Source: a bacterium (GTDB taxonomy: Bacteria; Patescibacteriota; Gracilibacteria; BD1-5; UBA6164). From it: a stretch of 41,553 nt of DNA. Both the position numbers and the translations under genes were made by a program. Below, piece after piece: positions 1,001-35,554 of the stretch (the first letter of the stretch is position 1; each line of letters opens with the position of its first letter). The notes under the pieces were generated by a model. The model was not told the DNA's origin, ran no database searches, and saw only the letters and a program-made list of their open reading frames with translations. Location: the NCBI GenBank assembly GCA_024635485.1, contig JAGXIV010000037.1, positions 1-41,553 of the forward strand, written 5' to 3'.

Positions 1001-1936
1001 TTAAATAAGTATCCTTCCATTTCTATATTCCTCAACTTCAAATTTGTTCACCTGACAACCATATTGACATTTATTATTGTGGTGTTCACATCATTCACAC
1101 CACTTGGGAACTGTTTGTCTGAGTCTCTTAGTATGAGGTGAAAACTTTTGAATATAGGCTGACATATCATTATTCAAAAGGTATTTTATATCTGCTGTAA
1201 AAGCAAGAGGTGGACAAGGAAGTATGGTCTCTCCATCAGGATTGATAACAGTAAATGCATCCGTTTTCTCAAAAGAAGGCGTCCCACAAGTAGATACAAG
1301 ATTCATATTATACTTTAAATAGACATACTGCTTTTCAGTAAACATACATATGGGCATAGGACCGAATATTTCTACGTCAATTTTTTCTTCTTCTTTGAGC
1401 GCTCTAGCAAGTTTATAAAAATACTCTCCATTCTCAAGACTTGGTTCTTCACTAAATACGATTCAGAGTGATACCGGTACTTTTAGTTTTCAAAGAATTT
1501 TTTGTATCAAAATAGCTTGATATTTATTAATATCATAAAGGTTATAAATAAGACGGACTCGAGAATGCTTTGAATAATATGAAACATTTTTTATAATTTC
1601 TTTATGACGCGTCATAAAGAGGACATTAATATTTATAAGAAATCTGTCAGGCATTTCTTTAAGCTTAATCATTGCGTTCGACATTACCGTAGTAATCATT
1701 CACTCTTCTCGTGCAAATTTAATAGCTTCATTTATGTGCTTCCACAAAGCTGGTTCTCAACCAATAAATATTATATATCGGACTCCATTTTCTTTTAATT
1801 GAAGTAGGATTTCTTTATAACGCTCAAAAGAGAGTTCTATATTTTTATACGGAGCTATGTATTTCTCTGCATAACAATAATCACAATTTGTATTACATTC
1901 GTATGTTCCAACAAAGGCTATATTATCAAATTTCAT
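1001..1936 (-). CDS. Radical SAM/SPASM-domain protein
   Basis: This 311-residue enzyme has the radical SAM cluster motif C14-x3-C18-x2-C21 near its N-terminus and a GGEPALW motif (GGEP-type SAM contact) in the first 60 residues. The C-terminal third has the SPASM/twitch pattern: a cysteine in STCGTP, then an INPDGETILPC segment, and finally CEGCEHHNNKCQYGC, which supplies ligands for auxiliary iron-sulfur clusters. Such enzymes usually modify ribosomal peptides or enzyme side chains by 5'-deoxyadenosyl radical chemistry. It sits in an operon with three other radical SAM genes and a His-Gly-Ser repeat precursor, so a role in peptide maturation is inferred. The start is the ATG 7 bases after the upstream DUF3050 stop. 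The substrate is unknown. Confidence 0.88.
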
Positions 1937-1943
1937 AAATATC

Positions 1944-2765
1944 TTATTTAGTTGCTAGTATTTTTTCATTTATTGTATTGAGTACTCATAATCTCAGCTC
2001 AAAACTTCTAATTATTATTTCTAATGCTTTTTCAAAGTTCTCGTCACTGAGGAAATAAGCAAGCAATTCATATCATTTTTCACTATGTTCTCCTCCATCA
2101 AGATCTATATGTCTTTGAAGGTAATTGATAAAAAATGCGTTATTAGTTTTTCATCTCTCGGAAGTCTGAGTTACTATCGAAGTAAAAAAATCTGGAATAA
2201 GATCTTCTCTACAAAAGAAAAACGATGCAAGAGGCTGGAATATTAATTTATCTGGGTCTTCTACTATATTTGAAATTTCTCTCATATAGAGAAAATGCTC
2301 TTTGACAGATTCAGAAGGAAAGAAATTAGGCTGATGTAGGTCAAGACTTATATCATCTGACATTCTCACATGTCACATGGCTCTTTCAATATAATATAAA
2401 TCAGCTTCTGATTGTTCCATAGCCTTGAGGTAGTATTCGAAGTGAGATAAGTCGTTAATTTCGCTATCACTTTCTTCATCTAAAACAATTTCTGTAATAA
2501 GTCGTGAAAACTTACCAGGAACTTTAGGATACCAACAAGAAAAATTATTACTTCCTTTCTTATAGACTGAATTTACTCCAAACTGAATTGATTTTAAAAG
2601 TATCATAAAATCCCATACTTGAAAAACATGATGTTCCATGTACATACGAATATTTTTTTGGGAATTAATATTATTGAAAACATCATGCTGAACAATTGCA
2701 TTTCGTAATTCAGCAACTCTCGGATTACTTAAAATATCTTGGATATATAAACTATCGTATTGCAT
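1944..2765 (-). CDS. DUF3050 haem-oxygenase-like-fold protein
   Basis: This 273-residue protein matches the DUF3050 family: MEHHVFQVWDFM at residues 43-54, ITEIVLDEESD at 90-100, SHFEYYLKAM at 107-116 and YLQRHIDLDGGEH at 215-227. The helical pattern with E44, H45/H46, E97/E98, H108, H219, D223 and H227 resembles haem-oxygenase-like diiron oxidases, and DUF3050 has been placed in that fold. Metal binding and oxygenase activity are inferred. The gene is 7 bases upstream of a radical SAM/SPASM gene and follows a lipoprotein gene, inside the Hxs-type operon. An oxidative tailoring step on the modified peptide is one possibility. A glycine codon TGA lies at residue 131 and again at 205. Confidence 0.85.
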
Positions 2766-2774
2766 AAATTATAA

Positions 2775-3548
2775 TTAGTATGAAATCAAATTCTCTTCTA
2801 TATAGGCCTTACAACTTCCATTTCTATATGCTGTCGCCATAAGTATTATATAAAATAACTCTTCCGACCCTACTCACGTATCCTCGTAAATAGTTCTTAC
2901 ATTTTCATTATATATTTGCATATATTTATTATATGTATCTTCATCCTCTATAAAAGCAATATAAATACCTAAAAGTGCTAGTCTTCCTAGTTCTGCCCCT
3001 TCCCCATTAGGATCAATTTTTATTGATTCATAGCTTACTTCTTGGAGTGAATTGATATTATCGAAATTCTTAAATTTTTCAGGAAGTTTGCCATTAATCA
3101 TTTGATCTACCATTGTATATTTCTCTTCTTTTGATTCAGTTCCAGGACAATATCCATTTTCCACTGCATCATAAAAGTAATTTTTTAATGTAAACGCTGG
3201 AAGTTGAACTTTTTTTCATTCTTCTAGAACATAATCAGTTTCTCATTCGAAATATTGGCATTTTGTAACCAGAGAATCAACCACCTCTTTCGAGAAGACC
3301 ATATCATTTTTTAATGCAAATCGACTTGTTGATTTTTCACCTTCTACTTCACTATATGTACTGACTTCTACAACTGGATTTTCAGTAAGAAAATCATCTT
3401 GAGGATCTTCTGAATTTATAGGTATTTCTACATCGACTATTCCGCTACCTGCTGAACTACCAGATTGATTTTCAGTACTAGTTGCTACATTATTTCCACA
3501 AGAAATAAGTACAAAAAGGAGACATATAAATGCAAAAAATTTCATCAT
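2775..3548 (-). CDS. Predicted lipoprotein, unknown function
   Basis: This is a 257-residue protein with a clear lipoprotein signal: two Met, a basic residue, a hydrophobic core and a LISC box with Cys17 followed by Gly. A Ser/Thr/Asn-rich linker follows (about residues 18-45), then an acidic, mostly soluble domain with no motif I recognise. Two further cysteines (in KCQYF and NGYCPG) and one near the C-terminus (GSCKAY) could be structural. It would be anchored to the outer face of the cytoplasmic membrane. It lies between a radical SAM gene and the DUF3050 gene in the Hxs-type operon, so it may bind or present the modified product outside the cell. That role is inference from context only. 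Confidence 0.8.
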
Positions 3549-3625
3549 ATTTTAAGTTATAAAAATATATAATATATGGTTACAAATTGTAAGGTATTTC
3601 TAACTAATGTAAAATGTTTTCCCAT

Positions 3626-4525
3626 TTACTTTTCGAAAGAATATCAACTTTGAATACAGTCAAAACAATTTTTCTTCATACTTCAAGAACTATATTTCAT
3701 AAAATATTGCTCAGATTTTAAAAAATGCCGAAAAATTTCTTCTCTCGTATAACGAATATGAGAAATTTTTATATCTGAAAGAAAGCATACTGGATGATGA
3801 ATACGAATATATCACTCGATATCAAACTCTATCATATCTTTCATTTCAAGCTCTCCATTCTCCAGATTAAAAAAATCTGGATATATACATGTTTCAAAAT
3901 TACATCCATCTAGACTCTCCTTTGCTTTATTATTTGTAACTTTACTTGAAATACTCCCATGTATCCCCTTATATAGAAATTCATAATTAAAGTAATCCTC
4001 ACTTTTGGTTATTTGAATTCAAGATGTTTTTCGTATGAGTGGAAGGAGTTTTTCAAAATCTAAACTCATATCATATCGTACGGTATCTATATTCATATGC
4101 TCTAGCATTTTTGCAATTTTCAGAAAATCTAAAAACTCTTTCAAGGAATTAATATTTTTTGATAATAAAAAATGCATCTCTGGATATATCTTTGAGAGAG
4201 AGTGTAATCTCTGTAGATATTCTTTTTCAAAAAAAGAAGCATCATTAATTTGAAGTACTACTCATCTTGAGAGTTCTTTAATTTTCTCTAAATATATATC
4301 TAAATTTGTATGTAAAATAGTGTCTACTCAATACAGAAAATAGACAAAGTTTTCGGTCGTAACTTCATTCGCGTATACTATATTATCTAAAATTTTTTGA
4401 CTATCATAATCTTGATTTCATACTGTACCATAAAAGCACCCGCTACATTTTGTTGGGCACTTTTCTCCAAGTTTTATAAAAATCTCTGGAGCTTTGGCTG
4501 ATGAAGTAAAGATTATCTGTGACAT
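3626..4525 (-). CDS. Radical SAM domain protein
   Basis: This 299-residue protein has the radical SAM motif C23-P-T-K-C27-S-G-C30 followed by FYGTV. The usual GGEP motif is weak: the stretch after the cluster reads FVYFLYGVD. Cysteines near the C-terminus (DGCNFETC, HHPVC, and NCFDC at the end) may bind an auxiliary cluster, though the spacing does not match a textbook SPASM domain. It is an unplaced member of the radical SAM superfamily. The stop codon of the upstream Rossmann gene directly abuts its ATG, which indicates tight co-expression. Substrate unknown; a role with the neighbouring His-Gly-Ser precursor is inferred. Confidence 0.82.
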
Positions 4526-5254
4526 TTAAAAATCTTGAGAATAATAGAGTTTTATATTTTTTTCTTCTTGTAATAATTGCTCAAGAGCAAGATCAAAATT
4601 TATAGGGTCATTATATGTTTTATTCCCAAGAATTAAAACTCAGTCATGAGAAAATTTATATGTACTCTCTACATTTTGATACCGAAAAACAATTTCGTAC
4701 CTCATAGTATCAGCTTTTGTAGGAATAATTGTAGTAGTATATTGTAGAGAAAATCATAAAAAATTATTGTGTATATGCAAAAGCCCTACAGATTTTGATT
4801 CACAAGATGTATATTCATTCTCAGGGATATATAAGCGAATATGTATATTTGAGATGTGCTGTTCACTTTTACGAAGAAGTTTCGCAAAAAGTGTATAATA
4901 CTCTTCTAAAAAAAAACTAACATTATCATAATCCATAAGCGACTGTATCACCGTATTATCCCAACTTACTGGAGTATCTACAATAATTTTTCAGCTATAT
5001 CATTGATTTAAAATATTAAGAGCCGTTGTTCATTGAATTTTAACGGGAAGAGCTATGATAATGAGATCATATTCTTTAAAGTGAACTTTTCAGCTCAGTC
5101 ATATAATAACCTGTATATCATATTTTTTCGATATGAGTGACTGAGACGCTTGACTCTGACATACACCAGTAATATGAACAGGTTTATTTTGGAAAAAATT
5201 AATATACTTTTTTCACTGCTCTCCTACTCAGATAATAAGTATAGTATTAAACAT
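4526..5254 (-). CDS. Rossmann-fold (Gfo/Idh-like) protein
   Basis: This 242-residue protein begins with a beta strand and the dinucleotide-binding loop GVGEQG at residues 9-14, in the order expected for a Rossmann NAD(P)-binding domain. Later segments such as YDLIIIALP and GKIIVDTP look like the beta4 and beta5 strands of Gfo/Idh/MocA-type or prephenate-dehydrogenase-type folds. The C-terminal half is not recognised and is short for a complete Gfo/Idh oxidoreductase. The start ATG overlaps the upstream radical SAM gene by 8 bases and its TAA abuts the next radical SAM ATG, so translation is probably coupled. It may supply a redox step in the pathway, but nothing in the sequence shows the substrate. 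Confidence 0.65.
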
Positions 5255-6176
5255 GGAGTGTTTTTAAGCAGCTATCTCAAAAGAGCTCATAGTAATCTCT
5301 GGGAATTCACATACATTTTCCTGAAAAAATACAGTCTTTACATGTTTCTGTTTGAACACTATCGTAAGTCGCAGCATAATCATCTCGTTTCTCTCAAGTG
5401 ACCAGATGACTCACACGATCATTTTTTATATTATCCTTTATAAAAGGATAATATGTTTCCTCTATTACGCAGTATGGAATATTATCAATCACTACCTTCA
5501 GTTTAATTTTCTTACTAATATATAAAATTTTTTTTATATATGGGAGAGAATCCTTATATTCAACCATAAGGTCTTTCTTCTCTGAATTTGTAAATAATTC
5601 AAGAGAAGAACAGTAATTCAACTGACAACGTGTAATTTTAAATTTCCCTAAATAGAGAAATAACTTCAGAAGTTCCCTATAGTTTCATTTATACAAAACA
5701 GTATTTACATCCAAAACAAATGTTGTGTCTTGCGAAATAATATCATCTACATTACGTATTGCTGCATCTAAGTTCGCAAAGCTCGATGGAGACTGTGTAA
5801 TGTCATCATGAAGCTTGCCATATCAGTGAAATGAAAATATAACTCCCGTCAATCACCTCTCATACAAATCAGATACATATGATGTATCTTTGAGCCTAAA
5901 TCAATTGGTATGAATTCTTATATGCTTATATCATTGACTCTTAGCAAATGAAATATAGTGAGGAAGATTCTTATCGAGTGTTGGTTCTCCTCACGCAAAA
6001 ATAACAAAGCGTTTTCATTGCTCAAAACCATCCCTGAGAAGAGTTTCAACTTCACTTTGTGTTAAGTTATTTTTATATTTGAACCGTAAATCTTTTTGAT
6101 AGCAAAAAACACATCGTACGTTACACGCGTATCATAGAAATATTTCAAGCCCTTCAAGGTCTTTAATATCTTCCAT
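5247..6176 (-). CDS. Radical SAM protein next to HxsA; HxsC candidate
   Basis: This 309-residue enzyme has C18-N-V-R-C22-V-F-C25 at its N-terminus, AGGEPTLD as the GGEP motif and a HTNGF strand, typical of MoaA-like radical SAM proteins. Near the C-terminus CKDCIFSGKC plus a final cysteine (GDSC) could hold an auxiliary cluster. It starts 9 bases after the precursor gene stop, which is where a second maturase would be expected. Classical His-Xaa-Ser systems have two radical SAM enzymes, HxsB and HxsC, so this is the HxsC candidate by position. I do not recognise diagnostic HxsC residues, so the name is not assigned. The coding sequence contains a 12-bp perfect inverted repeat. Confidence 0.85.
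5428..5454. repeat. Perfect 12-bp inverted repeat inside a CDS
   Basis: ATATTATCCTTT at 5428-5439 and its exact reverse complement at 5443-5454 are separated by three bases. It lies within the radical SAM gene at 5247-6176, where it encodes a segment around YYPFIKDNI. In RNA it would form a stable hairpin on either strand. No U-tract follows it on the minus strand, so it does not look like a terminator. Confidence 0.85.
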
Positions 6177-6185
6177 AAGCGCCTA

Positions 6186-6590
6186 TTACCATCTACTTCC
6201 ATGACTTCCATGACTTCCGTGACTTCCATGACTTCCATGACTTCCATGACCAGTGATAGTATTTATTCATCCATTAGGAGTAAATTGAGCTGATGGGGTA
6301 GAGCTAAAATGTCCATTTACAATTCAACTTGCATGATTTACTTTACAAACTCATGCATTATCATAATCGATATCATAATTCATTTTAAGTCCATTTGAGG
6401 CTGGTGATAATCCATCAGATTTCGTTTGATTAAAGTGTTCAAAAGCAGCAGATGCCTGATCTGCACTGGCAAAAAGAAGAGCTCAAGCACTTATTCATAA
6501 TGCATCTTTTTTTGTTATTTTTCCACTCTCGTCAGTAAGAAAATTTTTGAGTGATTTTTTAAGTGCTGGAAATTTTTTGTGTACTGCCAT
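6186..6590 (-). CDS. hxsA: His-Xaa-Ser repeat precursor (HxsA-like)
   Basis: This 134-residue protein is the likely substrate of the operon. It has a basic N-terminus (KKFPALKKSLKNFL), a short hydrophobic, Ala-rich stretch (ALGISAGALLFASADQASAA, residues about 30-49), a middle region with HAS and HFS, and a C-terminus of six exact His-Gly-Ser repeats followed by RW. The His-Xaa-Ser rule with Xaa = Gly fits the HxsA family, whose repeats are believed to be modified by radical SAM maturases. The Ala-rich stretch ending in ASA could be a leader or an export signal. It lies between HxsB and another radical SAM gene. HxsA is not known to be an enzyme. The Gly codons in the repeat are GGA, not TGA. 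Confidence 0.85.
6195..6248 (-). repeat. Six 9-bp repeats encoding His-Gly-Ser
   Basis: Six tandem copies of a 9-base unit (CATGGAAGT on the coding strand) make up the 3' end of the precursor gene. All are identical except the fourth, which uses CAC in place of CAT for His. The near identity at DNA level suggests recent expansion or replication slippage, so copy number may vary between strains. Confidence 0.95.
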
Positions 6591-6675
6591 AATTTATATT
6601 TGAGTAACTAATAGTTAGTATTATAGAAATTTTTACATAATTGCAAAAAAGCTCTCTTTACTTCAATTCTCTTTC

Positions 6676-8127
6676 TTATCTACCTATCCAGGACATCAAG
6701 ATTTTTTTATCTTCAGGATTCTGTAATTTTTCAAAAATAGTATCTAAAATAGCTATCTGTAGCTTCATTTTTTCATCTTTTACAAGAGGAGTATAGAGAT
6801 TTCCATCTATTTTATAATTATGAATAATATCTACTCATAAGTATGGTTTATAGACATGATCATTGTATCATGGAAGTCCATCTAATGTACTTGATTGGAC
6901 CGCAATTTTAGTAATATCACTGTTCATCATTCTATTATACGTTTCTTGACCAGAATCACCCACATCTGTCATAAAAAAAGTATCATCTCACATTCTTCCA
7001 AGCATTCTTGATTCATCACTCGCATAGATTTTTCCATCATAGTTATAGGCTACTCATCCAATAGCTATACCACTTGGACTTCGAATATCCATAAACGCTG
7101 GATCAAAAGCATTAAATATCTTTTGAAGATATATGCCTGTAATTTGCTCTCTAAATTGTTTTCACTGTTTATTAATCTCTATAATATAATCAAGGGATTT
7201 TCTATAGAAATCTATCCATTCATCTGATTCATATGCAAGAGTTTCCATATCACTTGCCGCAAATCCATAAGGATTAAGCCATCTCAAGAAAATACCATCA
7301 AGTCATAAATTAATATAGGTATCAATTATTTCTTTGTAGCGAGGAAGTGTTTGTTTTGTTACGGTAAGAAGTGCTCCAATTTTTCAAAGTCCTCTTTTTT
7401 GTTTTTCCTCATCAACTCTTTTAAGCCAATACGTTACAGATTCAAAACTATTTCCATCAAAACCGGTTCTATTTGCATTATGAGACAATTCATCTCCATC
7501 AAGGCTGCTACAAATATCAACTCAGTTATCTAATAACCATTTCAATTTATCCTCTGTCATAAGCGTCAGATTTGTAACAATAGAAAAAGTCAGTTTTTTA
7601 TCAAGATGTAGAGCTCTTTGTCCTGCATATTCAACTATATATTGTACAATTGGATAATTCACAAGTGATTCTCCACCCTGAAATTCTATAGTAAGACTTG
7701 GAGAGTTTGTATATAAAATTGCATCGACTACTTTTTTTGCAGTTTTCTCATCCATATCAAATTGTTTTGCGCTCATAGGAGCTACTGCTGCATGACAATA
7801 CTTACATTTATGATTACATCTGAGAGTAGTTACAATCATATGAAGCGTTGGTCCTACTCATACAAAATGATGTTTTCCTGCAACACTTCAAACCATTCTC
7901 TCTTCATAAGATTCATTTTTTATAAATCCTTTTTTCACGAGCTCCTCAAACTGATTCCCTACATCAATATTTCCAAGTATAAATTTCTGAAAATCATCGT
8001 TACTAAAAAAGTGAAACTTTCCAGCATCATTCGTTATAAGATAAGTATTTTCATTAAATTTTTTAAAACGGAAATATCCTATTTTATCCTTTGGAATTTT
8101 ATCAATCGTTTTTGTGTCTAAATGCAT
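6676..8127 (-). CDS. hxsB: His-Xaa-Ser system radical SAM maturase HxsB
   Basis: This 483-residue protein matches HxsB along its whole length: an N-terminal TYLITNDAGKFHFF segment, the HMIVTTLRCNHKCKYC core with C104, C108 and C111, IEFQGGESLVNYP, TNLTLMTEDKLKWLLDN, ICSSLDG, an IRSPSG-x-AIGGVAYNYDGKIYASDESRM block and a C-terminal IFEKLQ...MSW ending. HxsB is a radical SAM enzyme paired with the His-Xaa-Ser repeat protein. The oddity is in the expected auxiliary-cluster region (about 412-435): where SPASM-like domains have several Cys, this one has T414, Y421, H424 and L430. The start is the ATG 4 bases after the small upstream gene; TGA is read as Gly many times. Confidence 0.93.
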
Positions 8128-8131
8128 AGGT

Positions 8132-8317
8132 TTATATTGAAAGGAGGTAGTTCATAAATTCTCTAAAAATCTCATCAGATTCTTCGCTGTTTTCTGCAGA
8201 AATAGAAATTGCTCAATCTTTATAATCTATTTTTGCTACATCAGAAAAATCTTTTATAGATTCTTGAACTGAATCATTTGAGTAGATTTCTGATGATATT
8301 TCATATTTTTTCTGCAT
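8132..8317 (-). CDS. Small HxsD-like protein (61 aa)
   Basis: This 61-residue open frame lies between hxsD and hxsB, with 8 bases to the gene upstream and 4 to the one downstream. Its pattern (IYSNDSVQESIKDFSD, a short strand DYKDGAISISA, then EIFREFMNYLLS) repeats the order of HxsD: an initial helix, one or two strands and a helix ending in EF-x-N-x-LL. It looks like a shortened HxsD paralogue. It is too small for a catalytic domain and could be an adaptor that delivers the precursor to the maturase. One in-frame TGA (Gly35) supports code 25. The relationship to HxsD is by eye. Confidence 0.72.
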
Positions 8318-11397: not shown

Positions 11398-12699
11398 TTA
11401 TCTCACAAAAATCCAAACGTCGTGTTCCCAACTTACATCATATCCTGGTTGACCTGATACAATTCCCCAAGGATTTGAGTCATACCTTGCTCCAGTTCAT
11501 AGTCCATCCCCAGAGAGAAAATCCCGAAAAGCAAGCAAATAACTTGAATTATGTGGTGTAGGTCTGAGTGACCATTGAGTTCAATGACACTGTATTTGAT
11601 TACTAACTAAGTAGCTTCAATTAATACTGGTCTTATACGAAAATTCAGTACTGCTTCCAAAAAAATTACTACAAGGAACAATAGGCCCCATATACATACC
11701 ATTCATAAACTTATCATATTTTAATTGTAAAAATTTTGAATTAGTATTTGCTGTACTCACGTTTGAGGTATCAAAGAGTACCATCATTTCTGTATGATAT
11801 AATTGTGCCATATTTAATGCATAGGTTTCATTTGTATCCTCCATTGATGAAGTATAGATTCACATTGGAGCATTAAAAGATATCTCAGTTCCATTTGTAT
11901 CATTATCAATATGGGCTGCAAAAGTCCATCCCCCTCAATCAGTAGTCATATCACAATATACATCTATAGGTTGGACTCAAGATGGATTTATTTTTTTGAT
12001 TCAAGACTGAGTAGATCACAACAATGCTTTAATCCCCTTGCAGCTTGTGTTTGGAACTATTCCCACATAATCATTTCAATTCGCTCATACAATCTTATTC
12101 TGAGTCGTAAGATACGATACAAATGAGCCCGTAGAGCTTTGTAAATCTAAGCCATTATCTAATATAACACTTTCAAGTTTATGTATAGGTATATTTGTAG
12201 TTTGTTGCATCAAAACTCAGATCTCAGATCCAAAAACTCATGGGTAGAGGGAGCTGTAACTACTCAAATTTTCTGCAGCATGCACATTATTTCCAAGGAC
12301 GAATGTATCTGTGTTTTTTTCTTCAAAAAACGCAAGTATTTGACTGCTTTTTCTATCAGCTGAAACTATATAAGTAAAAAAATCTTTTGATTTTGGATCT
12401 CTTCCTCCATCAGAATATTTAATAATATCAAGCACAGATTGATCCAAATCTCACTGAGTTCAGATTTGAGCTCCAGAAAAACTCACTGCTACCATATCAG
12501 CAGAAAGTGGGATTTTTTGTCGAGTAGCATGAAGTTCTAATGCCTTATGGAGAGATGAAATTTGTTCAAGTCTGCTTCCATCTCTGACTCATCTTAAATA
12601 GTCTGTATATGACACAAAACCAATACTTGATAAAATTGCTACAATTGTGATTACAACAATGAGCTCAACAAGAGTAAATCCTAAATTTAATTTTTTCAT
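11398..12699 (-). CDS. Type IV pilin-like protein with fibrinogen-like domain, copy 1
   Basis: This 433-residue protein has a class III signal (GFTLVELIVV, with Gly7/Phe8 cleavage and Glu at +5) and a long hydrophobic N-terminal helix as in type IV pilins and pseudopilins. A globular region follows, then a fibrinogen-like module from about residue 222: SCKGIKALL, INPSGVQPIDVYCDMTTDGGGW and a C-terminal DVWIFVR. That order (Cys, SG-x-Y-like strand, VYCDM, DGGGWT) is the signature of the fibrinogen C-terminal superfamily, known for binding surface ligands. It is last in a six-gene run with 7 bases between it and the next copy. An adhesive pilus subunit is inferred. Confidence 0.85.
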
Positions 12700-12706
12700 T
12701 ATTTTT

Positions 12707-13999
12707 TTATCTTATATAAATCCACACATCATTTCAAAAAGAATTTGTTGTGCTTATACCATCCCATTCTCCATTGAGCCATCTCCAAGCATCAGAGGAC
12801 CATCGAGTCCCAGCAGTAGTACTTTCTCGAAAATATAACAAGTATAAACCTAAAGGACCTCATGTTGGATTATAATCTTGTGGTCTAACATACCAAGCTG
12901 TTCAACATCATCAGACTTTACTTGACATATATTCTCATCATATTTTAGTTTTATGAAATAAAATATCAGAGGATCATAGTGGATTCGGGCATGAACTTAG
13001 AGTTGCTGTATGGAACATAGGAGCATCTAATCCATACCGAAGCATAAGAAAAGAATTAGTATTATTCGCCTCTTGAGGAGATTTTGTATTGATGAGTGCC
13101 ATCATTTCAGTATGTTCAAATTGAGACATATCCAAAAAATACTCAGTTCACGTATCTTTTCTCTCTACATTATAAGTTCATACGGCAGAAGCAAAAGAAA
13201 TTTCAGAAATTGCACTCCCTCCATCTACATGACCAGCAAAAGTCCAACCACCTCATTCTATATCCATATCACAATATACTTGAAGAGTTGATGAACCGTT
13301 TGGAGAAATAAGATATTTTCAACTTTCTCATGCCTTTCCAAGATCTTTTATTCTTTTACAACTCTGGTTCGGAATCATCTCAGTGAGATCATCAAAAGTT
13401 GAATCTAAAAATTGAGTATCAGAAAAGTAAGACAAGGTTGTTTCAGTTCATGTAACAATATCATAGGAATTTCAGACAATATTTGTAAGTTTATTGAGTG
13501 GGATTTGAGTATTTTTTTCTAGCATAATACCAAGAGGGCTTCAAACAACCTTAGGAAACATATTTATATAATCTATAGTGTCAGCATGAGTACTTGGGAG
13601 AAAAGTAAGAAGTTTTGAATCTCAAATATATCACATTAGTTGAAAATCACGTCCAGTGTGAGTTAACATATATGTATATGGAACATCATATTCTGGATCT
13701 AGACCTCCACCATCATATCAAATAGCCTTCATTACGTTAGATCCTGCAAGTCCTTGATATGCAAATAATGAGCCATTTGCTGAAATTTCTACTGCATCTT
13801 CTGGAAATGGAAGTTTTGTTTGTGAACTTAATATTTTTAATCAATCACGTATTTCATTGAGTTGTACCATACGATTTGTATCTCTACTTCCAGCTAAATA
13901 TTGCTGGTATGTCGTAAATCATACTGTTGAAAGGATTGCAAGAATTGCAATCACTACAATTAGCTCCACAAAGGTAAAAGCTCATTTATTTTTTATCAT
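12707..13999 (-). CDS. Type IV pilin-like protein with fibrinogen-like domain, copy 2
   Basis: This 430-residue paralogue has the pilin start MIKNKGAFTFVELIVV, where the residue before Phe is Ala, not the usual Gly; prepilin peptidases often accept Ala there. The middle domain carries GGGLDPEYDVPYTY, a block shared by all six copies. The fibrinogen-like part includes SCKRIKDLG, SPNGSSTLQVYCDM, EGGGWTFAGHVDG and a DVWIYIR ending. It differs from copy 1 over much of the C-terminal domain, which suggests diversification of binding surfaces. The upstream gene stops 7 bases before its ATG. No alternative start is plausible, because the nearby ATG at 14007 meets TAA after two codons. Confidence 0.85.
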
Positions 14000-14006
14000 A
14001 TTTTCA

Positions 14007-15305
14007 TTATCTAACAAATATCATTCCATTTTTTCAATCTAGATCTCAATCAACTCAACTATTAAATCTATCTGATCTCAAACCATATATACTTTTTCAA
14101 TTATTAATTCAAGAGTTCACAGCTGTTGAATAATATCTAAAATAATATCATTCATATCTATGTCCACTCACTCTCCCTCAATCAGCAATTTCTCTATCTG
14201 TGTAATCAATATTTCACCATTTGCTTATATAGTAGCCTGTTGTCCCCTCATTATCACAAGCACTTGCCCAGGTTGTTAGAGGAAATAATTCCCTACAGCT
14301 TCCAGGAACTGTAGAACTAGCGCTTGCATATTGGCTAGCATCTTTAATATAAAGTGTATCACTTATTTCAAAACTTAAAGCATAATCAATAGTTTTACCT
14401 GTAGTAAAAGAAGCTAACATAATTTCAGAAAAATTTAGATTTTTTGATGACTCTCAAAGTGAATATGGCTTAGACTCATCTTGGACATTCCCACCTTCGA
14501 CCATCCATCAAAAGTCTTTATACAATGCATCAACAGGACTTGATCTCGCTACTAAAGTCCAACCTCAACCATCCATTTGCATATCACAATATACTTGAAT
14601 TATTTTTTTTCAACTTGGATTTATAACATACAAACCACTTGTAGCACTTGGTAGCAATAATTTATGAGTTTTGCAACTAGAGTTTGGTACGAGTCATAAA
14701 AATTCATCATTATTTCAACTCAAAACTCTCGTATTTGATAAAATTGCTACTAAATTAACCTGAGTCCCCGAAACATCTATAACTGAACCTGTTTCATATA
14801 CTGGATTTCGATGTATTGGCATATTAGTAGTAGTATCAATAATTACCCCTAACTCTCATCCATAGACGTAAGGATACATATCCTCTCATGCAGCATATGT
14901 ATTCTCTAGTATAGAAATATTTTGTGATGATTTTGATTCTAAAAATGTAAGTATTTGTATGTTTTTTCTATCAGCACTCGTAAAAAAAGTAAAAAAATCT
15001 TTTGTACGAGGATCTACTCCTCCATCTGAATATCGAATAATATCAAGAGTATCTTGATTTATATCTCATTGATATCAAGCAATAGCTCCATTATACTGGA
15101 TAGTTTTTGTTCATTGTGAAAGAGGAAAGAGTGCACGAGTAGTATAGAGTTCGCTTGCACTAAACAAGCTAGTAACTTGTTGAATACGATTTGAATCTCT
15201 GACTCCTATTAAATAATTTGTGTATCCTATAAATCAGAGTGTGGAAAGGATTCAAACAATTGTAATCACCACAATTAACTCAACGAGTGTAAATCATTTT
15301 TTCAT
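14007..15305 (-). CDS. Type IV pilin-like protein with fibrinogen-like domain, copy 3
   Basis: This 432-residue paralogue begins MKKGFTLVELIVVITIV, a textbook class III signal in which the critical Gly at -1 is encoded by TGA. The fibrinogen-like part has SSCKTHKLLLP, INPSGKKIIQVYCDM, DGGGWTLVARSS and GMIFVR at the end. The C-terminal domain is closer to copies 4 and 5 (GWM-x-E-x-G, YSLGE, LNFSEIMLAS) than to copies 1 and 2, so the cluster contains two or three subtypes. Extra cysteines (GSCREL, SACDNE) are spaced as in a disulfide pair. Location is expected to be the cell surface after N-terminal processing. Confidence 0.85.
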
Positions 15306-15316
15306 ATATTTTTTAT

Positions 15317-16606
15317 TTATCGAACAAAAATCATTCATTCTGTATTTCCTATATCTCCACTTCCTTCATCAGTAAATTTATTAGCCCTTAAGCCATAGAG
15401 TGAAGAAATATTATTAGAGTTAGTTGGATTAGAGTAGTATCGAAAGAAGAATCATTCATCTCGAAATCAAATTTTAGTTTCATCACTTCGATAGCTTATA
15501 AATCACCAATTAGCGTGAGCAAATACGTTTCATAACTTTTCAACATCACAAGAACTATTCCAGTCAACTCAATCTTGTGAAAATTCTCTACAATTAGATG
15601 TGGGAGATGATACAGCATAATTATTCGAATCAACAATATAGTCATCGTCTACTCAAATTACAATTGCCTTATCCGGATTTTTCCCATTTTGATAACTTGC
15701 TATCATTATTTCTCTAAAATTTAACTGAGTAGAAACTGGTCAAAGAGAATATTTATCAGTATCGTTATTTATACTTCAATATTCAATCATCCATCCAAAA
15801 TTTAATGGTGCTGCATTGATATGACTTCTTCAAACAAGAGTCCATCATCAACCCGCAAAAAGCATATCACAGTAAACTTCTTTTTTTCATCCATTTACTA
15901 AATCAATAATATAGTTTCAGTTTCCTCGAGCACTTCATAGTTCTTGAATTCTATTACAACTGGAAGCTTGAGAGAGAAAAAACAGATTATCTCGACTTGA
16001 ATCGAATTTAATTTTATCTGATTTATACATATAAACACCTCCAGTTCAGTTTATAACATCATACGTATTATTTATAGGAAGCTCAGACCTTTGAAGAGGT
16101 GTTTGAGTAGCTTTATCTACTATAACTCATAAGGGTTTTCCTGCAGTTTTAGGAAATAAATTTCAATATTCAATAACTGCAGCATGAACTCATAATACTC
16201 AAGCACTAGAAAGTAAATTTACATCCGATACATAGGTTAATAGCTGAAAATCTTTTCCATTATCAGCTAACATGATCGTTAAGAAAGTATCAAACTCTGG
16301 ATCAAGTCCTCCTCCATTATAATCTATTGCTTGAATTATTTTTTCATCTACATCTCATTGTATCGCGTATGAACTTCAGCTCATTGTGATATTTACTAAG
16401 TTTGCAGGAAATGGCAGTTTCGTTGTTATACTCAGACGCTCTAATCAATCATGCACATCATTGAGTTGTACAATTCTATTTGAATCATAACTTCAAGATA
16501 TATATTCTTGATAGGTCACAAAACCTACAGTCGCTAAAATAGCTAAAATTGTAATTACAACTATAAGCTCCACAAAAGTAAAAGCAGGTTTATTGGTTCT
16601 ATACAT
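15317..16606 (-). CDS. Type IV pilin-like protein with fibrinogen-like domain, copy 4
   Basis: This 429-residue paralogue begins MYRTNKPAFTFVELIVV, with Ala before Phe at the processing site. The shared middle block reads GGGLDPEFDTFLTI. The fibrinogen-like part has SSCNRIQELG, EVYCDM, AGGGWTLVGRS and EGMIFVR at its end. Two of the three glycines of GGGWT are TGA codons, which shows that reading TGA as Gly restores a conserved motif. The 11-base gap to copy 3 and lack of any terminator between copies support one transcript. The N-terminal helix would polymerise; the C-terminal module would be displayed. Confidence 0.85.
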
Positions 16607-16610
16607 TTTT

Positions 16611-17900
16611 TTATCTTACAAATATCATTCCTTGTTTGTTTTCCATAACTCCTAAACCATCTCAAGTAGTCTTATTCCATCAACTTGATTCCATTCAATA
16701 ATGTAAAGTTGCACTATTTCTTGCATATTCATCAAAAAAGTAATGTGTATCATTAAGAAGATTATCAGTTGAATAATTCAATAATCCCCAAAAAACAAGA
16801 GCACTATGATCCGTCGTCTTTCAATCCTGTCAGGTTATATCACAAGGACTCATCCAATTTGAAATTGGATACACTTCCGTACATCCAATACCACGAGAAA
16901 ATGTTCAATAATTACTTGAATTTTTAATATAATTCTTATCAATACTCGTTTTAGCTGCATATTCTATATTTTTTCATTCAACATAAGAGCTTATCATAAT
17001 TTCTCAAAAACCTAAAGTTGTTGATTCTTCTCAAAGTGAGTATGCTGCATTGTTATCTCTTACTGTTCATGTTTTTGACAACCATCAAAAATTATTAGGT
17101 GAAGAATTGTTACTACTTCGAGCTACAAGAGTCCATCATCCACCATCAATTTCCATATTACAATAAACTTCAAATGGACTGAGTCACGATGGATTAATAT
17201 TATAGATCCCATTTCCAAAACTTCATCATGTTTCAAGTATTTTTTTACAGGTAGTATATGGAATGATTCAAACAAGATTGGATTCTTTTCATGAAATGAG
17301 ATAGCTATCTGTTATGTATGCGTCAAATAAATTTGTAGTACTATCTTGTAAATCTATATAACCACTTTGTGAATATTCACTCATTTCTTGCAAGGGAGTA
17401 TTTGTTTTTTGTTCTAAAAGAATTCAGAGTTTCTTTCAAAAAACATTTGGATATCTTTGAGAATAATCTTCTGCAGCATAGGTTTGAGTCAATGTATTTG
17501 AAATAACATCTGAATTATATTTTTCTAAAAAACCAAGCAATTGAAAATCTTTTCTATTTCGAGAAAGTAAGTAAGTGTAAGGAGTTTCATCAAGTGGATC
17601 AAAAGTATTTTCACTGTAAGCAATGGATGAAAGTACATTTTTTCAAGCATATCCTTGGTATAAAAACGCTGTTCCACTATTTCGAATTTCTACCGCATCA
17701 TCTGGAAGTGGAAGTTGTCATTTCGTAATAGCAAGCCTCATACCATCCCTCAGACCTGAGAGTTGAGCAAGTCTTTTACTATCTCTCGTATCACCAAGAT
17801 AGTTTTCATATGATATAAATCCAACTGTCGCAAGGACAGAAAGTATAACTACGACTACCATTAATTCTACTAATGTAAAAGCTTTAAAATTTTGTTTCAT
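16611..17900 (-). CDS. Type IV pilin-like protein with fibrinogen-like domain, copy 5
   Basis: This 429-residue paralogue begins MKQNFKAFTLVELMVVVVIL (Ala at -1, Glu at +5). It has the shared block TPYTYLLSRNRKDFQLLGF, then TTCKKILETGGS, INPSGLSPFEVYCNM, DGGGWTLVARSS and QGMIFVR. VYCNM replaces VYCDM. It is 4 bases upstream of copy 4, the tightest spacing in the run. It shares the C-terminal YSLGEESTTLGFGEIMISSY block with copies 3 and 4. Function as a minor or major adhesive pilus subunit is inferred from domain layout. Confidence 0.85.
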
Positions 17901-17918
17901 AAATTATTTTTTTAAAAA

Positions 17919-19253
17919 TTAGCGAACCATAATATAAGAACTGAACCCTTGGTAAGCTTTATCAGAAAAGGTATCTCAACAAGACAGTCCATCTTGAAAA
18001 TCATCAAACCCATACGAGTTGCTGCTTCAACCGTTAGCTCTTGCATCTGTAAATGATATTTTTCATCATGTTGTTGAACTTCAAATGGTAGTAACTGGGT
18101 TATGAGGAAAAGTATTATTAGGAGCATCTGTCTTAATATATCCTGTAGAAACAGAAGAACTACTACCACAATAAATAAGATTTAGATTTTGAAATCTATC
18201 CAGCTTCTTTATATCACTACTCGCAGGAGGAATAATATATGGTGTAGTAGCTGGAATTCTTTGGATAGAGTTCCATTCAAGATATCTGTATGTTTTTAGA
18301 TTTTTAAAGCTTCCCTCATAGACTCACCATACAAATTCACTAAACTCTAAATCAGATGCAGCTACTACAAAGTCACTTCAAGCTTTCAATGTACCACAGG
18401 CATGTCATGCGAATCAAGAAAGTCTTGGATAACATTTATTAGTAGTATCGCTGATAAATTCATCATCAGAGTTATCATTATTTACTAATATACTCCATCC
18501 ACCTCCGTCAGTTCTCATATCACAATAGACTTGTATTTGTGTAACTCAATTAGGAGAAATAGTATATACACCGTCACCAGTAGATTTTCACATTTCAAGT
18601 ATTCTTTTACAACTTTGATTTGGAATAATACTGAGAATATTTGTACTATTTACTTCATAAAAATCATTAGAAGATTTGAATGCTAAAAATGTTCAGGTAC
18701 CTGTTACAATATCATATTTTCAAGCAGAAAGATAGGAATCAATGGTTTGAATAGGTGCACTCGTTTGAGAGTCAAGCAGTATTCATAAAGGTTTTCAAAT
18801 AGTAATTGGGAAAACTGTTTCATAATCAACAAATGCGTGAGTTTGAGAAACAAAACTTTGAAGACTCGCATTGTCTTCTACAAAGTTCAATAATTGAAAA
18901 TCTTTTCTATTAGAATTTAGAGAATACGTTGGATAGGTCTCGTACTCTGTATCGAAAATATCTCATTTGTATCAAATAAGATTTGCCATCTCGTTTGTAA
19001 TAAATCATTGATAGGCAAAAACTTTTGAGCTCGCTTCGAGTGAGACTTTGTTTTCTGGTATTGGGAGTTTAGAGAGTGTTGAAAAAGTAGAAAGACTTTG
19101 ATGAATCCCTTGAAGCGTCACTATACGTTTTGTATCTCTTCAAGTCCCTAAATACGACTCATAAACAGTAAAACCGATTGTTGCAAGTATGGCTATAATA
19201 ACAAGCACGACAATAAGTTCTACAAAAGTAAATCAAGATTTATTCTGTCGCAT
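17919..19253 (-). CDS. Type IV pilin-like protein with fibrinogen-like domain, copy 6
   Basis: This 444-residue protein is the first gene of the pilin run. It begins MRQNKSGFTFVELIVVLVII with Gly at -1 (TGA codon). The fibrinogen-like part has QSCKRILEMGKS, SPNGVTQIQVYCDM, TDGGGWSILVNND and ends SSYIMVR. Its C-terminal domain has several extra cysteines (NKCYPR, HACGTL, IYCGSS, LSCGDT) absent from the other copies, so it is the most divergent member. The promoter for the operon is probably in the 123 bases upstream, which also hold the rpsU terminator. Confidence 0.84.
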
Positions 19254-33073: not shown

Positions 33074-35554
33074 TTATAATAATCCTTTCTCTTTTAAAAA
33101 GGCATCAATATTCACATCTCTGGCAAAAAAGTCTTGGAATAATTCTGAGGCTTTTTTGGTACTTCCAGCAGAAAGCATAAGGTCGTGAAAACGAGAAGCA
33201 ATTTCTGGAGAAAAAATGTCTCACGCATTTTTAAATGCTTGCCATACTTCTTTTTCAATAATTTCAGCCCACATATAACTGTAATACCCCGCAGCATAAC
33301 CTCCGTCAAAGATATGAGTAAAAGTTGTATGAGGAGAATAGCTTTTTGAAACGGGAAATATTGAGTTTTGCAATGCATTTTCACGAACTAGAGCGTCGAG
33401 CTCAGCTTCATTTGTAGGAATATTTTGACTGTGCAAGCTCATATCTAACATAGCGTAGGTATTTTGAGCGAGAATCATCTGAGCGTTCCCAAACATTTCG
33501 AGTATTTTGAGTTTTTGAAGCATCTCGCTAGGAATTTCTGAACCATTTTCAAAATGTCGAGCAAAGAGTTTCATTCCAACTTCGTCTCTTGCCCAATTTT
33601 CAAGGAGTTGACTTGGAAGTTCTACAAAATCATGTTCTACGTGGAATCCAGACAATTCACTATACTCTGATACAGAGAGCATTTCATGAATCGCGTGCCC
33701 AAACTCATGGTACATCGTTTCTACATCACCAAGTGTTAATAAAGTCACTCCATCACTTCCTTTTTGGAAGTTACAGGTATTTAAAACTATTTTTTTATAG
33801 TCTCAGAATTTTTCACGCATGAGATCAGCCCAAGCTCCCTGTCTTTTCAGTGGAGTATAGAAATAATCTGTAAAAAAATATGATATGAATTTTCCGTTTC
33901 TTGAAACCTCATAGATTTGAACTTCAGGACTATAACTTTCAAAAGTTGTTTTTTTCATTTCAATTCCGTAGAGTCTCCCCGTTGTTTCAAACATTCAGGC
34001 CAATACATTTTCATACACAAAATACTTTTTGAGTTCTCGGCTATCAAAGGCATATTTTTCTTGTTTGAGTTTATTTGCGTAATAGCCTAAATCCCATATA
34101 TCTAAATTTTTAAGCTGAAAGTAGTCTTTTATTTCTTGGAGTTCTGCTTCAGCTTTTGGTCGAGCCTGAGAAGCTATATCTCAAAAGAGTGAAATAATTT
34201 GCTTTGAAGAATCAGCCATTTTAAAATGCAATGAAAGCTCCGCGTAGTTTTTAAATCCTAGCAGTTTCGCCTTTTGTTCTCTGAGTTTGAGTATTTCTAA
34301 AATAAGAGGATTATTGTTATATTTTCCTGTTGTCGCAAAAGAGTTTCTTGACTCATAAAAATATTTTCGCACCGAACTCTCAGAGCAATATTTCATAACA
34401 GAGCCATAAGAAGACTGGCTCGCATCAAAAAGGTATCATTGTTTTTGCGATATATCTTTTGAAAGTGGTGCTACCATCATGAGTTTTTTTGTATTTCAAC
34501 AATCAACTGGGTCTGAAAATCTTTGAAATCAAAATGTATTATAATATGTTTCATTTTGCTCAGCTGCAGGAATATACATCTTCGTTTCTCACTCTTTCGC
34601 ATATTTTTGTTGAACAAATTCTATGAGAGTAGAACCAAGACTTTTTCATCTGTATTCCTTAAGAACTCAAATTCTCCCTAAAAGTTTCTCTCAAATTTTT
34701 GCAACTCATTTCAATTCTTTATCATCATTTTCAATAATTTTTTCATCAATAGATTCAATTTGAATAGCTCCAATTAGTTCATCTCAGCCAATGTAAAAAA
34801 TTTCACTTCGAGAAAATTTTTCATATTTATTCTTTCAAAGAGTAATATTAAATTCATGATCCCACATTATTTGAAAGAATTCAAAACATGCTTTAAATTC
34901 TTCTTCACTTTGAGCCTTATGAATACTATATTTTTCATCATACTTCTTTTTTGCTACAGATTTGTCATCTTCTGGCATTTGCGAAATAATAGATTCGTCA
35001 GTAATAATATACTCAAATTCTTTTTGAGAATCCAGTGCATTATTTGAGAATTTTTGAGAAAGTTCTGATAAATTTTTATTGAGTTCTTTCAAAATATCTT
35101 GATCAGAATCAGCAAGCGCAATTCATCGAACTTCGTACGACTCTATAGACTCATCCAGAATTTTAATTTGTTCTAGATTCAGATTTTTTGTCTCTCGAGC
35201 TATTTTGAGCATTTCAAAATAACGCTTTGAGTAGGCAACTTCATTTCAAAAATCTATATATTCTGGTTCAAAGTCTTCGATTATTTTCCGAATAACATCA
35301 TCACTATGCACTCCTTGATAGTGTTCTAAAATACTAAAAAAATATCCAAGAAGAGAAAATTCATCAAAACTTTCAAAAGTTATCACGTCATTTTTCAGGA
35401 GCAACTTTTCTTGAAATTCTTTTTTTTCTTCTTCGAGTAATTCTCTGAGTAATTCTGGTGCAATATCTAAAACTTCAGCTGAATAGAGAAATTTAAGATT
35501 TGGAAAATCGGGATTATTGAGCTCTTTTCTGATTTCTTCTTTGAGACTTTTCAT
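33074..35554 (-). CDS. M3-family oligopeptidase with inserted GNAT domain
   Basis: This 826-residue protein is a zinc metallopeptidase of family M3 (oligopeptidase A/PrlC type). HEFGH at residues 616-620 and the downstream E645 in FVELPSQ form the zinc site; FDGGYAAGYYSYMWAEI is the substrate-binding block near the C-terminus. About 160 residues (209-367) form an insertion that reads as a GNAT acetyltransferase: LGRIGVLKEYRGKSLGSTLIEF is the acetyl-CoA loop, followed by MYIPAAEQNETYYNTFGFQRF. M3 sequence resumes at GYLFDASQSSYGSVM. The whole length is one frame under code 25. It lies alone between the sigma gene and the DUF2127 gene. Without the insertion it would be about 665 residues, normal for the family. 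Confidence 0.9.

Follow-up and report, generated by a model that had tools for sequence, protein, structure and literature searches.

The M3A oligopeptidases of solved structure that lie nearest to the protein described here, at about 24–29% identity, are the Arabidopsis organellar oligopeptidase (4ka8), oligopeptidase A (OpdA/PrlC), Dcp and neurolysin. Our protein has in common with them a full-length M3 frame, a TOP_N domain and an HExxH+E zinc site, and its modelled fold is the same over 657 residues. It differs in a GNAT acetyltransferase domain that sits in the loop after residue 208 and is present in none of the listed structures of these enzymes. This domain shares a complete topology and the near-invariant positions of the acetyl-CoA site with stand-alone GNATs (PF13508/PF00583) such as SACOL1063 (5jph), ElaA, YjcF, RimI and, nearest of all, the product of a gene from a genome of the same family (L023). 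Unlike these, it is embedded in another enzyme, has neither a start nor a stop of its own and carries a serine in motif A. Domain insertions are common: one account, which mentions neither GNAT nor peptidase, reports them in 20% of multidomain proteins (PMC13114784). The M3–GNAT protein combines two known families in a nested architecture that is new. No M3–GNAT fusion, candidate-phyla UvrC–GNAT or nested-enzyme isoleucyl-tRNA synthetase (IleRS) was found in the open-access literature searched, which does not prove that they are absent elsewhere.

The gene lies in a stretch of 41,553 nucleotides (the window) and is read from the minus strand. Read with NCBI table 25, where TGA encodes glycine, it forms a single open reading frame of 826 amino acids with 16 in-frame TGA codons; a table 11 reading was rejected because it yielded short fragments only. 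In-frame TGA also occurs in the M3 gene of most relatives from the same family, which places the host among the UGA=Gly patescibacteria of the Gracilibacteria/Absconditabacteria type. The initial annotation of this DNA had located the insertion correctly, save for its end point (see below), and had claimed a continuous frame through both junctions, which the single frame under code 25 bears out; missing from it were the strand and the fact that the frame is open only under table 25. The gene and the M3 features are as follows.

33074..35554, minus strand: whole gene, M3 oligopeptidase with nested GNAT, stop codon included (826 amino acids, table 25)
34931..35554, minus strand: M3 N-terminal part, residues 1–208, from comparison with relatives and Pfam
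35102–35350, minus strand: Pfam TOP_N, residues 69–151 (E 1.3e-7)
33077..34438, minus strand: M3 C-terminal catalytic part, residues 373–826, from relatives and Pfam
33695..33709, minus strand: HEFGH zinc motif, residues 616–620, invariant in 25 relatives
33620..33622, minus strand: E645, third zinc ligand by homology, invariant in 25 relatives

The Pfam model Peptidase_M3 (PF01432) matches residues 386–824 with an E value of 1.5e-103 and is covered from position 1 to 456 of its 457 positions. Besides the zinc site residues H616, E617, H620 and E645, the channel residues Y739, H747 and Y753 are invariant among 25 M3 homologs. The Pfam matches and the conserved zinc site thus agree with the earlier description of a GNAT nested in an otherwise complete and catalytically equipped M3 peptidase, and the motif and residue numbers given for HEFGH and E645 were exact. 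The NCBIfam equivalog for OpdA (NF008159) stayed far below its cut-off, at 360 versus 927 bits, and we therefore refer to the protein as an M3A-type oligopeptidase rather than as OpdA.

The remaining features belong to the insert and to its junction with the M3 catalytic part.

34463..34930, minus strand: inserted GNAT acetyltransferase domain, residues 209–364, full-length counterpart of the stand-alone GNAT at L023:1450–1923
34634..34651, minus strand: GNAT motif A, R302-G-K-S-L-G307, acetyl-CoA pyrophosphate loop by homology (near-invariant columns in alignment A2)
34541..34543, minus strand: Y338 of YYNTFGF, candidate GNAT general acid by homology, near-invariant in A2 (Y135 of P0002)
34439..34462, minus strand: linker back to M3, residues 365–372 (SKDISQKQ), of which 371–372 align to the relatives' M3

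Relative to uninterrupted M3 proteins, the insert spans residues 209–370 (±2), about 162 residues, with residues 371–372 already aligning to M3. An insertion at 209–367 had been proposed; the GNAT assignment and the start were borne out, and the end moved from 367 to 370 (±2). Failure to detect a GNAT profile had been named as one observation that would speak against the assignment. GNAT models exceed their gathering scores whether the full protein or only the insert is searched (Pfam, E 1.4e-7 to 4e-7), the three for the insert alone being PF13508 at 32.2 bits (cut-off 27), PF00583 at 31.4 (20.7) and PF13673 at 30.5 (23.6). Modelled separately with 28 homologs, the insert reaches a mean pLDDT of 92.7 and adopts the canonical GNAT topology, β1-α1-α2-β2-β3-β4-α3-β5-α4-β6-β7. 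Compared with known structures, the model gave a Z score of at least 8 for 970 of 999 aligned chains, with the best match (Z 18.2) to SACOL1063 in a structure with CoA. Ten near-invariant GNAT positions are kept: R294, V297, L298, K299, R302, G303, K304, G307, Y338 and G342. Within the motif A pattern R/Q-x-x-G-x-G/A, the insert has a serine at the first glycine (RGKSLG), as do L042, L046, L050 and L067. Neither sequence nor fold points to a particular substrate: no equivalog scored above its cut-off, and the structural neighbours (ElaA, RimI, Naa50, YjcF and others) are generic, covering peptide N-terminal as well as small-molecule acetyltransferases.

To see how the host enzyme accommodates this domain, a whole-protein AlphaFold2 model was built with 25 M3 sequences. 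It is confident for M3 near the junctions on both sides and falls below a pLDDT of 50 over residues 233–370, because the alignment holds no homologs of that stretch. Superposition on 4ka8, the plant organellar oligopeptidase, covers 657 of 695 residues at 2.4 Å (Z 38.1), and in the model the M3 fold is intact around the insert. The structure prediction proposed earlier thus yields an undisturbed M3 fold and a folded GNAT, from lobes that were modelled separately. The insertion point lies between a helix that starts at residue 195 and ends near 208 and a strand at 374–377, which begins GYLFDAS. The stretch varies among relatives, and the same loop holds shorter insertions in L010 and L015; together with the confident model on either side, this favours a loop that is external and permissive. 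The M3 genes of six relatives (L007, L010, L011, L015, L191 and L192) carry in-frame repeat-type peptides in loops (VIPAKAGIYEKGNDN..., SPTGEG-like), two of which occupy the same loop as the GNAT of the window.

The closest relative (G005) has an uninterrupted M3 ortholog of 665 amino acids, with 85% identity for the C part and 69% for the N part. Synteny between the two runs through an RlmH-like gene, a small membrane protein, M3, an ECF sigma factor and the genes that follow. Just upstream of its ortholog, G005 has a second M3 gene, about 31% identical (L169:1309–3372, plus strand), which is absent from the window. Of 353 genomes of the class that were scanned, 56 contain the M3 protein, the window's own included. 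Besides the window's genome, 51 have the two halves of M3 on a single contig, and in all of these the gap between the matched halves is at most 39 nt, versus about 490 nt in the window; the gaps were counted by hand from match tables. A further ten M3 frames, drawn from the wider phylum, are open over 640–710 amino acids and lack the insertion. The initial annotation had suggested a search for the same architecture in relatives and held that its lack in all of them would count against the proposal; it is absent from every sampled relative. Across these sequences, the architecture is not conserved. Its absence from relatives, including the syntenic ortholog in G005, indicates a gain in the lineage of the window, so far a singleton seen in one assembly.

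A counterpart of the insert is present within the same family. Genome G120 contains a stand-alone GNAT gene of 157 amino acids (L023:1450–1923), whose product aligns with the insert end to end, its Met1 pairing with Y209 and its C-terminal residue with about L364. The insert is therefore a complete GNAT gene minus its start and stop codons. The local alignment score lies about 21 SD above that of shuffled sequences, a similarity far beyond chance. A viral source was considered and rejected, the one weak IMG/VR match covering 26 residues, and plasmid records contained no place covering 80% of the query. At the junctions, a search for a target-site duplication returned only 7-nt A-rich matches. 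In composition, insert and host differ: GC3 is 23/156 in the insert versus 173/662 in the M3 part (Fisher p 0.002), and TGA supplies 9 of 13 glycine codons versus 7 of 30 (p 0.007). Measured against other genes of the window, however, it is ordinary, as the TGA fraction of glycine codons there averages 0.50 (SD 0.18) and GC3 is as low as in the insert in 31 of 293 stretches; a recent foreign origin is thus unproven by composition.

These data also bear on whether an assembler joined a piece of a GNAT gene into the M3 gene. The gene sits on one contig of a single, 39-contig assembly, and an insert-type GNAT was found nowhere else in the genus, both of which speak for such an error. A misjoin would, however, have had to keep the frame at both junctions and leave the two M3 halves on one contig, ordered as expected and between conserved neighbours. 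It would also have had to pick an insert that uses TGA for glycine like its genome and that runs from one end of a whole GNAT gene to the other while leaving out both start and stop. No long repeat that could drive misjoining is present at the junctions, and nested enzymes are found independently in genomes elsewhere in the class. We consider an artefact highly improbable. The continuous frame, the synteny, the fold and the full-length stand-alone homolog together support a real, lineage-specific insertion.

How might the product work? We propose that, in one UGA=Gly patescibacterium, a permissive loop in an M3 peptidase of the OpdA/neurolysin type received a complete GNAT gene, in frame and minus start and stop. 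The resulting chain would comprise two enzymes that fold independently. The zinc oligopeptidase part would trim short peptides in its channel, and the GNAT lobe would bind acetyl-CoA and acetylate some amine. The insertion presumably survived because the loop accepts insertions. We regard this account as probable; both sites would then be active, work independently of each other and be of benefit to the cell. With an uninterrupted ortholog and a stand-alone insert-type gene at hand for this enzyme within an enzyme, the tolerance of M3 for the insertion and any gain of function are directly testable.

Two other readings of the insertion deserve weighing. The GNAT may be a tolerated passenger, a neutral insertion into an accepting loop that folds, has no useful activity and will decay. 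The architecture is a singleton, and the six relatives named above show that M3 tolerates repeat-type insertions without obvious function, both of which would fit. At four-fold degenerate sites, only 66 of 162 are identical between the window gene and that of G005, so the two species are far apart. The GNAT frame has stayed intact over about 160 codons and the near-invariant positions have been kept on this long branch, which argues against a passenger, if weakly, as the insertion may have occurred at any time within the branch. On balance a passenger seems unlikely. Alternatively, the two activities could be coupled, as the initial annotation had suggested in general terms, with the GNAT acetylating what leaves the M3 channel, whether peptide N termini or amino acids, and so tagging or protecting these products. 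Physical linkage is the only support that we found for this suggestion, apart from the presence of peptide N-terminal acetyltransferases such as RimI and Naa50 among the structural neighbours and a report of a Gracilibacterium living on externally derived peptides (PMC6851277). Small-molecule acetyltransferases are equally present among those neighbours, however, and no other sampled M3 carries the fusion. A peptide-specific reason is made less likely by the GNATs nested in UvrC and IleRS, hosts for which it could not account. Coupling thus strikes us as improbable, and two independent enzymes on one chain are the simpler reading.

The nested enzymes of other genomes in the class were read from the following loci.

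L025, L026, L029 and L168:1980–4313 (minus strand for L168): UvrC with GNAT in the UvrC RNase H domain
L167:533–4690 (plus strand, code 25) and L180–L190: isoleucyl-tRNA synthetase with nested enzymes, 12 genes read

In several families of the class, where the arrangement seems widespread, a GNAT lies in the middle of a split UvrC RNase H domain, and many UvrC frames are 700–880 amino acids long; those of family f1, at about 460–520 amino acids, have no nested GNAT. The IleRS of G018 (1386 amino acids) contains a histidine phosphatase and a GNAT. Together with eleven others of the same family, it makes up a set of 12 IleRS with inserts of 143–359 residues at five sites, located after residues 219, 510, 536, 567 and 707 of the 1056-residue reference IleRS (L196). 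The inserts carry NUDIX, His_Phos_1 (up to three), Ser_hydrolase or GNAT domains in varying combinations, with up to four enzyme-sized inserts per protein, and they bring the total length to 1227–1925 amino acids versus about 1030–1056 without. Three IleRS genes, that of the window genome included, have no inserts; L196, L197 and L198 served as plain references.

Like M3–GNAT, these cases place a whole small enzyme in frame inside a larger housekeeping enzyme. They differ in that the hosts are other enzymes and the arrangements recur in many genera, whereas M3–GNAT is so far a singleton. The M3–GNAT protein seems to fit a recurrent habit of nesting enzymes in these bacteria. It is conceivable, though we put it forward tentatively, that a recurrent and perhaps still active process places entire genes for small enzymes, in frame, into the loops of larger ones, with the nested IleRS, UvrC–GNAT and M3–GNAT among its products. 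If so, the lineage would have its own way of gaining functions without extra genes. With the IleRS of this family, an essential enzyme seems to offer a natural insertion library. Should the pattern hold, nested enzymes would be characteristic of these reduced genomes and would be hidden by annotation under the wrong code. The single M3–GNAT case is of moderate interest; the lineage-wide pattern merits more.

Two further loci in the window were noted by eye. On the minus strand at 1001–8175, several CxxxCxxC radical-SAM-like proteins are encoded beside a small protein ending GSHGSHGSHGSHGSHGSRW (6186–6590), a possible modified-peptide (RiPP-like) cluster. At 11398–19253, also on the minus strand, six tandem pilin-like genes share an N-terminal GFT-VEL-motif, and each has a YCDM/YCNM...GGGW C-terminal part that resembles a fibrinogen-type domain; they are possibly a variable adhesin array.
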